DNA from: Sphingobium chungbukense
Lineage (GTDB): Bacteria > Pseudomonadota > Alphaproteobacteria > Sphingomonadales > Sphingomonadaceae
Assembly (NCBI RefSeq): GCF_001005725.1
Contig: NZ_LBIC01000003.1
Span: 496,001 to 560,000, forward strand
Length of the DNA stretch: 64,000 nt
Direction: 5' to 3'
The notes beneath the pieces are model-generated. The model worked only from the letters and a program-made list of their open reading frames with translations. It had not been told where the DNA came from and ran no database searches. Of this stretch, positions 39,914 to 41,051 are shown piece after piece. Positions within the stretch are counted from its first letter, which is position 1, and each line of letters opens with the position of its first letter. A program made the position numbers and the translations under genes.

Positions 39914-40702
39914 ATGGCAAGCGCGCCCGCGAACGGCCTTCCCGTCTTCTACAACGACCTTATTCCGCTCAGCAGCGTCGATCACGCCGCCTATCGCAGC
40001 CGTTCCGTGGATTCGGCACCCTTCCTCACCACGCAGCACGCCATTCCCCTGACGGTCGACGAATTCGTCGCGGCACAGCGTTTCGTGCCGATCATCTTCT
40101 CGGCCGGTGACGAGCCGGTTCCGCTGGCGCTGATGGGCCTCAACGAAGGCGTCAACACTTTCCTCGACGATGAAGGCAAGCTGCGCGGTCCGGCCTATGT
40201 CCCGGCCTATGTCCGCCGCTATCCCTGGATGCTGGCGAAGCTGCGGCCCGACAGCGACGAACTGTCGCTCTGCTTCGATCCCACCAGCGACGCCATCGGC
40301 GTGTTCGAGGACGGCCAGCCCCTGTTCGAGGACGGCAAGCCCAGCGAACTGACCCAGGGCGTCCTCAAATTCTGCGAGGATTTCGAACAGGCCGCCGCCC
40401 GCACCGGCCAGTTCATGAAGGATTTGAAGGATCTGGACCTGCTGATGGACGGCGAAGTCGCGATCCAGGTGCCCGGCAACGACCAGCCCTTCGTCTATCG
40501 CGGCTTCCGCATGGTGAACGAGGAAAAACTGCGCGACATGCGCGGCGATCAACTGCGCAAGATCAGCCAGAACGGCATGCTGCCGCTGATCTATGCCCAT
40601 CTCTTCTCGCTCCAACTGATGCGCGAAGTGTTCGAGGCGCAAGTGTCGCAGGGCAAGGGCCCGATCGCTGTTCCCGCGACTCCCGAACCGGCGGGCGCCT
40701 GA
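39914..40702 (+). CDS. SapC family protein
   Basis: The 262-residue protein matches the SapC family (PF07277) over its length: FYNDLIPLSSVDHAAYR, FVPIIFSAGDEPVPLALMGL, YVPAYVRRYPWML and QLMREVF. SapC genes are frequent in Sphingomonadales, often near TonB-dependent receptors and PKHD hydroxylases; here it stands alone. The name derives from an S-layer associated gene, and the function is unknown. Confidence 0.9.
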   Translation: MASAPANGLPVFYNDLIPLSSVDHAAYRSRSVDSAPFLTTQHAIPLTVDEFVAAQRFVPIIFSAGDEPVPLALMGLNEGVNTFLDDEGKLRGPAYVPAYVRRYPWMLAKLRPDSDELSLCFDPTSDAIGVFEDGQPLFEDGKPSELTQGVLKFCEDFEQAAARTGQFMKDLKDLDLLMDGEVAIQVPGNDQPFVYRGFRMVNEEKLRDMRGDQLRKISQNGMLPLIYAHLFSLQLMREVFEAQVSQGKGPIAVPATPEPAGA

Positions 40703-40756
40703 TTCAAATTAATCGCCAATGACAGATATTTAAGGAAAAAGGTTGCGAGGAGCCAC

Positions 40757-40785
40757 TTGAAACTCCTCGCGGCCTCCTCTATTTA
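40757..40785 (+). promoter_or_regulatory. Sigma70-like promoter of a small RNA
   Basis: TTGAAA (40757..40762) and TATTTA (40780..40785) are separated by 17 bp. The expected start at about 40791 coincides with the first base of the folded RNA described next. Confidence 0.7.
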
Positions 40786-40790
40786 CTGAA

Positions 40791-40902
40791 CATACGGTGC
40801 ACCTGCCCCCCTTTCGGGTGTGTCGTATGGGCGCCTCCCCCTTAGGAGGCGTCTCCTCCCTGAACCTTGGCCACCCCATGCGAATGCATGGGGTGGTTTT
40901 TT
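40791..40902 (+). ncRNA. Putative small RNA with three hairpins and CUCCUCCC motif
   Basis: There is no ORF here, yet the 112 nt fold convincingly. Stem 1 is CATACG (40791..40796) with CGTATG (40824..40829), enclosing a C-rich loop. Stem 2 is CGCCTCC (40832..40838) with GGAGGCG (40845..40851). A single-stranded linker then carries CTCCTCCC. Stem 3 is an 11-bp terminator hairpin (40871..40881 with 40886..40896) followed by six T. The C-rich loops could pair with Shine-Dalgarno sequences, as in alphaproteobacterial CcsR/Cuckoo-type sRNAs. I do not recognise it as a named RNA. Confidence 0.7.
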
Positions 40903-40976
40903 ATAGGTCGGTTTCGCTTGACGCGCTCCCATCCTCCCCGTAGAGGCGTCCCCCTGCCTCGCTCGAAGCGATGCAA

Positions 40977-41051
40977 GGCCCCTTCGTCTAGCGGTCAGGA
41001 CGCGGCCCTCTCACGGCTGAAACACGGGTTCGATTCCCGTAGGGGTCACCA
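40977..41051 (+). tRNA. tRNA-Glu (anticodon CTC), CCA encoded
   Basis: The 75-nt cloverleaf includes a 7-bp acceptor stem (GGCCCCT with AGGGGTC, one G-U pair), a D-loop with AGCGGTCAGGA, anticodon loop CTCTCAC with CTC, T-arm GGTTCGATTCC and encoded CCA. Its 3' 50 nt are the attachment site of the island that follows; the gene remains whole after integration. Confidence 0.95.
41002..41051. repeat. attL direct repeat (tRNA-Glu 3' end)
   Basis: This 50-bp segment starting GCGGCCCTC and ending GTCACCA is identical to 56994..57043. It runs from the anticodon stem to the CCA end of the tRNA gene. This is the classical integration target of tyrosine recombinases. Confidence 0.93.

Follow-up and report, generated by a model that had tools for sequence, protein, structure and literature searches.

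A conserved, sapC-linked small RNA gene in Sphingobium and related genera with an alphaR8-like 3' module and a putative heat-shock-type promoter

Within a window of 64,000 nucleotides from Sphingobium chungbukense (the whole stretch of DNA analysed; contig NZ_LBIC01000003.1) we identified a real, uncatalogued small RNA (sRNA) gene, a new variant near the alphaR8 RNAs and probably an uncatalogued, longer cousin of a known messenger-silencing RNA family. The gene is usually single copy and is conserved across much of the family of Sphingobium, in dozens of genera; it is tightly structured, its helices covary, it is linked to sapC, and its heat-shock-type promoter motif is shared with groES and many hsp20 genes. 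On balance, it is probably a stand-alone gene for a trans-acting, stress-induced and Hfq-assisted RNA that would be driven by the heat-shock sigma factor RpoH and would block Shine-Dalgarno sequences by means of an alphaR8-type module. Sphingomonads are used for pollutant and lignin conversion, and the sphingomonad sRNAs met in the portions of the literature covered here were the functionally studied SuhB of Sphingopyxis and the Zms RNAs of Zymomonas. Among the papers listed in searches of open-access PMC, none described the sapC-linked sRNA.

Table 1. Features of the sRNA locus and its surroundings (positions refer to the window).
Feature	Position	Strand	Basis or remark
-35 element CTTGAA	40756..40761	+	read from sequence; family promoter scoring
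-10 element TCTATTT	40778..40784	+	16 bases after -35; family promoter scoring
Predicted small RNA, ~111 nt	40791..40902	+	start inferred from -10 box; end from T run
Hairpin 1, 15 bp, loop CCCCCCUUU at 40806-40814	40791..40829	+	fold, covariation, accessibility
Hairpin 2, 9 bp	40830..40853	+	counterpart of first hairpin of Rfam suhB/alphaR8 model
Single-stranded linker UCCUCCCUGAACCUU, probable seed	40854..40868	+	accessibility, conservation
Intrinsic terminator: hairpin 3 and six T	40869..40902	+	fold, terminator scan, covariation
Inverted repeat around -35 box	40745..40770	.	followed by AACCTTTTTC on minus strand, terminator-like
sapC (Pfam SapC PF07277)	39914..40702	+	conserved upstream neighbour; Pfam, context counts
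tRNA-Glu(CTC)	40977..41051	+	neighbour in most Sphingobium loci only

An earlier note had described an unannotated small RNA that lacks an ORF and has a promoter and a terminator to itself, and its elements were confirmed almost to the base: TTGAAA (40757-40762), a 17-base spacer and TATTTA (40780-40785), three hairpins, the linker CUCCUCCC, a terminator stem of 11 bp and six T. In the minimum free energy fold the hairpins span 40791-40829, 40830-40853 and 40869-40898 and carry the loops CCCCCCUUU, CCCUUA and GAAU, while CTCCTCCC is read at 40853-40860 in the linker region. The terminator stem (40871-40881/40886-40896) consists of 11 bp plus two G-U pairs and is followed directly by TTTTTT (40897-40902). 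The free energy of the fold is -60.9 kcal/mol, whereas shuffles average -38.0 (z -6.5), and none of 200 shuffles was equally stable. The C-rich single-stranded parts are the first loop and the linker; the second loop is not conserved and in other genera is mostly short and not C-rich. No long ORF was found at the sRNA locus, only mechanical frames of 44-84 aa, and orthologue lengths differ through indels that are not multiples of three; these indels and the compensatory changes rule out a coding RNA. Taken alone, the simple scans prove nothing: the one for sigma-70 promoters requires the -10 box to end in T and gave 0 promoters for that reason, and the one for terminators gave 3 sites in 1.8 kb against 2.0 expected. 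Both promoter and terminator are conserved in the orthologues, however, and chance is excluded by conservation together with covariation; the gene is real and encodes a non-coding RNA.

The locus is present in 24 of 25 Sphingobium genomes, its own genome counted; the match in G036 in this search is a canonical alphaR8 RNA (L051). The exact hairpin-1 pattern was found in 36 stretches of a collection of 84,980 species genomes (34 Sphingobium, 2 MAGs), partly from the same genomes as in the same-genus search. An alignment of 45 distinct Sphingobium sequences was compared with the structure folded from the window: 98.4% of its cells paired and 11 of 37 pairs showed changes on both sides, which 0 of 500 shuffles reached; on one of five measures, further pair types, the alignment was no better than shuffles (193/500). 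A covariance model (R1) was then searched over 296 genomes of the order and matched 227 of them at E<=0.01, in 69 of 79 genera, mostly with one match per genome in the family. By hand count about 170 of the 227 belong to the own family, at least 20 genomes of which had no match, and 57 to other families. The matches in other families are weak (best 1.2e-6) and probably represent cross-matches to canonical alphaR8, loci of which score up to 35.7 bits with R1. Re-scored genus and family loci (n = 81, leaving out two paralogue-like loci of the own genome, L111 and L112) range from 46.8 to 135.9 bits.

Covariation among homologues, whose absence had been named beforehand as speaking against the gene, is present. 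Both-side changes were seen in 31 of 37 pairs in alignment A2 (43 rows, 42 distinct, L111 and L112 included; 98.2% paired) and in 34 of 37 pairs in alignment A3 (54 rows), where 95.6% of cells paired against 39-46% in slid controls. For both, 0 of 500 shuffles came up to the real alignment, whichever of the five measures was used, bearing in mind that A2 and A3 were fitted to the covariance model and lean towards the proposed structure. On alignment A1 a misalignment in the region of hairpin 2 led RNAalifold's own consensus to draw that hairpin differently. Across the family all 15 pairs of hairpin 1 show both-side changes, and the orthologues keep three helices by compensatory changes together with the exposed linker CCUCCCUGAACC. 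With L111 and L112 left out, the (N)CCTCCCTGAACC linker was recovered by exact text in 102 of 110 rows, with a median unpaired probability of 0.94 (102 sequences). The C-rich loop of hairpin 1 never had a mean unpaired probability below 0.5 among the 101 sequences scored, and bases 9-45, which hold this loop, contain a run of at least four C in 102 of 110 rows. The two own-genome loci themselves, L111 (G000:C5:124251-124350) and L112 (G000:C7:450521-450630), are weak R1 matches (37.7 and 25.1 bits) with CCCTGAACCTYGGCC in common and degenerate linkers, and are possibly further alphaR8-like RNAs.

The promoter, called near-consensus in the earlier note, is present and conserved, but is better read as being of the sigma-32/RpoH type. 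A first look using CCTATAT gave at least 9 of 13 in 93 of 110 regions, after which the -10 consensus was widened to CCYATNT; the resulting score is therefore partly fitted to the data. With CTTGAA-N15..17-CCYATNT, 101 of 107 distinct upstream regions scored at least 10 of 12 (12 in 34, 11 in 42, 10 in 25) and six scored lower (9 in 4, 8 in 1, 7 in 1). Among the 105 regions scoring at least 9 the TTG is invariant, the first C is found in 96 and the two A in 93 and 99, the spacer is 16 in 80, 15 in 24 and 17 in 1, and the -10 consensus is CCYATNT. As background, a score of at least 10 was reached by 0.65% of the 2140 single-base shuffles and, among 5814 pieces of the window, by 0.5%; three sites in the window (both strands together) score at least 11, one of them being the sRNA promoter, and the strict pattern has 2 matches in the own genome. 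Positive controls were taken as upstream stretches of 330 nt from searches of 13 related genomes, and here 17 of 18 groES and 15 of 28 HSP20 stretches scored at least 10, against 3.3% of 772 window pieces.

The main rival to RpoH control, which we regard as unlikely, is that the same sRNA is driven by the housekeeping sigma-70 and that CTTGAA/CTATNT is no more than a sigma-70 promoter of the alphaproteobacterial type. Against this rival, the sRNA promoter in several genera reads CTTGAAA...CCCATTT/CCCCATTT, the textbook sigma-32 form, and just 2 of 38 suhB-type control loci scored at least 10. None of the 16 Sphingobium RNase P upstream regions did so either; these score at most 8 and by eye carry a different motif, mostly GATGAC/GGTGAC, then TATAG, CTAAGG or CTAGGG. 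On the other hand, 4 of 9 RNase P regions from non-Sphingobium genomes (other families) scored at least 10, most groES sites are CTTGAC and thus closer to sigma-70, and the final -10 T is missing in most analysed alphaproteobacterial sigma-70 promoters (PMC8407463). Outside Sphingobium the pattern is not specific to RpoH. The RpoH1 consensus of S. meliloti is given as CTTGAA-N15-16-CCTATAT, and among the genomes of that study the Sphingomonadales have only rpoH1 (PMC4843759); a promoter of this type, common to heat-shock genes, is found at the sRNA, with the limits on specificity set by the suhB-type and RNase P controls. The -35 box also sits in an inverted repeat whose arm sequence varies while the pairing is kept (p<=0.05 against shuffled arms in 28 of 44 Sphingobium regions, median z -2.5, and in 13 of 52 of the other set, up to three same-genus loci included). 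Since a T tract (AACCTTTTTC) comes next on the minus strand, this repeat may be a terminator for opposing transcription, or else an operator.

Judged by its sequence, the closest kind of the sRNA is alphaR8 (SuhB/MmgR/SisA), the 3' part resembling an alphaR8 module to which a 5' C-loop hairpin is added. The Rfam search proposed in the earlier note returned only the tRNA-Glu in the window at gathering thresholds; at a loose threshold RF00519 suhB matched 40832-40910 with 33.5 bits (gathering cut-off 41) and RF02344 ar14 matched over its whole length, 40788-40901, with 24.2 bits (E 0.011, cut-off 58.8). The RF00519 cut-off is passed by at least three Sphingobium orthologues (43.5, 42.2 and 42.1 bits) and by 1 of 20 other-genus loci (42.5 bits), which makes a common origin with alphaR8 likely. 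The alphaR8 RNAs are described as having an internal single-stranded 10-mer, UUUCCUCCCU, below a weak hairpin and then a terminator, and their gene as adjoining N-formylglutamate amidohydrolase in most species (PMC12559287). The same architecture is found at the sRNA locus, where the linker together with positions 40852-40853 yields the alphaR8-like 10-mer UCUCCUCCCU; this form occurs in 70 of 110 rows and the exact UUUCCUCCCU in one (L133). The conserved neighbour is sapC and not the amidohydrolase. We stop short of counting the RNA as a member of alphaR8, since in the window the score lies below the Rfam cut-off, the 10-mer is not the exact one and the customary neighbour gene is missing. 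This neighbour gene discriminates poorly here, being absent also beside canonical suhB loci: none of ten frames tested next to six canonical alphaR8/suhB loci was an N-formylglutamate amidohydrolase, the frames comprising CoA transferase, AAA/CDC48, LolA and six without a family. A CoA transferase or AAA/CDC48 ATPase lies beside the canonical alphaR8 genes L242, L245 and L253.

In common with alphaR8 (RF00519 suhB/MmgR; SuhB of Sphingopyxis granuli TFA; SisA-D of Caulobacter), the sapC-linked sRNA has the hairpin, the single-stranded CCUCCCU core, the GAACUU-like stretch and the G/C-rich terminator; unlike alphaR8 it has a 15-bp 5' hairpin with a C-rich loop, a promoter apparently of RpoH type, sapC as neighbour and a 10-mer that is mostly UCUCCUCCCU. 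The published SuhB is counted as alphaR8 here by its name and Rfam. We selected 42 genomes of the family in which R1 had a match; in 38 of these a separate RF00519 match over the cut-off lies away from the sapC-linked locus, and in G149 an additional one lies at it. Since all 38 over-cut-off genomes have an RF00519 match elsewhere, the published Sphingopyxis SuhB is unlikely to be the sapC-linked locus.

In the proposed mechanism RNA polymerase with RpoH probably starts near 40791 and the transcript would end at the intrinsic terminator at 40902, giving an RNA in which two protective hairpins are followed by the exposed linker UCCUCCCUGAACCUU and a U-tailed terminator. Possibly aided by the C-rich loop in hairpin 1, the linker would base-pair with several mRNAs at their G/A-rich Shine-Dalgarno regions, and these mRNAs would, with Hfq, be repressed under heat or related stress. 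The alphaR8 RNA SisA represses mRNAs in an Hfq-dependent manner through its UUUCCUCCCU seed (PMC12559287) and Sphingopyxis SuhB acts with Hfq to repress thnR (review PMC6563040), and it is by analogy with these two that the linker should block several Shine-Dalgarno regions; pairing of the C-rich parts with such sequences, as suggested earlier, is plausible. In the own genome there are 9 occurrences of the extended complement GTTYRGGGRGGR, the same number as for its reversed control (9); one site is the sRNA gene's own antisense, and none of the others is itself a clear ribosome-binding site, one (L151) preceding an 86-aa frame. A short seed is likely because long complements are no commoner than the reversed control. 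We consider it evenly balanced whether an alphaR8 module gained the 5' C-loop hairpin and an RpoH promoter, becoming an uncatalogued heat-shock sRNA of the sphingomonad family with its seed under proteotoxic-stress control and with a second recognition site formed by the constant GAACCUU half and the C-loop. If so, a Shine-Dalgarno-blocking seed that serves carbon/PHB control elsewhere would here be under proteotoxic-stress control, and the sphingomonad RpoH response would have an RNA arm built from the alphaR8 toolkit.

Alternatively, the RNA could be a decoy (sponge) titrating a protein or an RNA, its conserved linker half CCCUGAACCUU and C-rich loop binding one partner. Shine-Dalgarno pairing alone does not explain why the linker is just as constant in its GAACC half as in its anti-Shine-Dalgarno half, and in Caulobacter a sponge captures the alphaR8 RNAs themselves (PMC12559287). 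A decoy is nevertheless improbable, as no partner was found and the complement is not in excess in the own genome.

The upstream gene is sapC (PF07277, E 3.9e-68) and was found at 24 of 24 same-genus loci and 34 of 36 exact-pattern loci, the two remaining stretches ending next to the RNA. Of 62 further loci, three of the same genus and the rest from other genera, 59 have sapC upstream in the same orientation, and in the other 3 it was not found within the examined stretch. In Sphingobium a tRNA-Glu comes next at 22 of the 24 and at 33 of the 36 loci. At 12 of 20 other-genus loci a tRNA was present within the examined stretch, and the 11 of these analysed with ARAGORN were all tRNA-Val, about 1.4-1.7 kb downstream of the RNA. 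The sRNA therefore belongs with sapC, which is kept in other genera, and not with the tRNA-Glu, so that of the two flanking genes given in the earlier note the second is merely a local neighbour. The near-constant position downstream of sapC on the same strand would also fit a 3' UTR or attenuator of the sapC transcript in place of an independent gene; this is quite improbable given a conserved promoter whose spacing from hairpin 1 hardly varies, a distance to the end of the sapC alignment that varies from 55 to 787 bases, and the 3 loci at which sapC was not found. A tRNA-Glu leader was rejected, as elsewhere there is another tRNA or none, and so was sapC as a cis target, GGAGG being missing from the 134 bases before its start.

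The alpha-r14/Cuckoo/NfeR1 RNAs (RF02344 ar14) likewise have three hairpins and an anti-Shine-Dalgarno sequence, and CcsR1-4 of Rhodobacter sphaeroides have the C-rich anti-Shine-Dalgarno motif in common with the sapC-linked sRNA. In alpha-r14/Cuckoo/CcsR the motif CCUCCUCCC is unpaired in the hairpin loops (PMC7143759, PMC3927594), in ar14 in all of them and with hypervariable stems, whereas here the loops lack the repeated CCUCCUCCC by which that family is defined and a motif-like stretch sits in the linker. The CcsR RNAs are stress RNAs controlled by alternative sigma factors, RpoHI/RpoHII among them (PMC8307010), as is proposed here, but they arise by maturation of a transcript that also covers ccaF1 upstream, while at the present locus the promoter motif directly precedes a single RNA. 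Membership in this family, the kinship drawn in the earlier note, is highly improbable despite the three hairpins, the C-rich single-stranded parts and the whole-length ar14 match, because that match is far below its cut-off, CCTCCTCCC occurs (anywhere in the row) in only 13 of 110 rows, and the anti-Shine-Dalgarno motif is not in all loops, whose sequences mostly refute it. The earlier note was right about the object and wrong about its relatives.

Outside the own family, R2 matches (22 genomes) have the CCTCCC core and the look of canonical alphaR8 in 20 of 22 loci; L303 lacks the core, some others carry 5' hairpins of their own, and none had a significant sapC match in the stretch examined. 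Among these alphaR8-like RNAs of other alphaproteobacteria an extra 5' hairpin, not covered by the 77-position Rfam model, was seen at L304, L316, L299, L301 and L302, in a few cases with C-rich loops (L304, L316). As alphaR8-like RNAs elsewhere sometimes have 5' hairpins, the one added in the sapC-linked sRNA may be an option of long standing among alphaR8 RNAs. Sphingobium also has a multi-copy suhB-type RNA (GCCTTTCAGGCATCCTCTCCTAAAACTTT), with six copies over the cut-off in the own genome (L058-L063). The upstream 100 bases of 25 suhB-type loci (these six and 19 from Sphingobium) contain TGCA-type inverted repeats in 23 and TTCGCA..TTGC in 20, as plain counts without shuffled control. These motifs resemble the operator of a common regulator, at a guess a PhaR/AniA-like one; in S. 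meliloti mmgR is repressed by AniA (PMC7143759).
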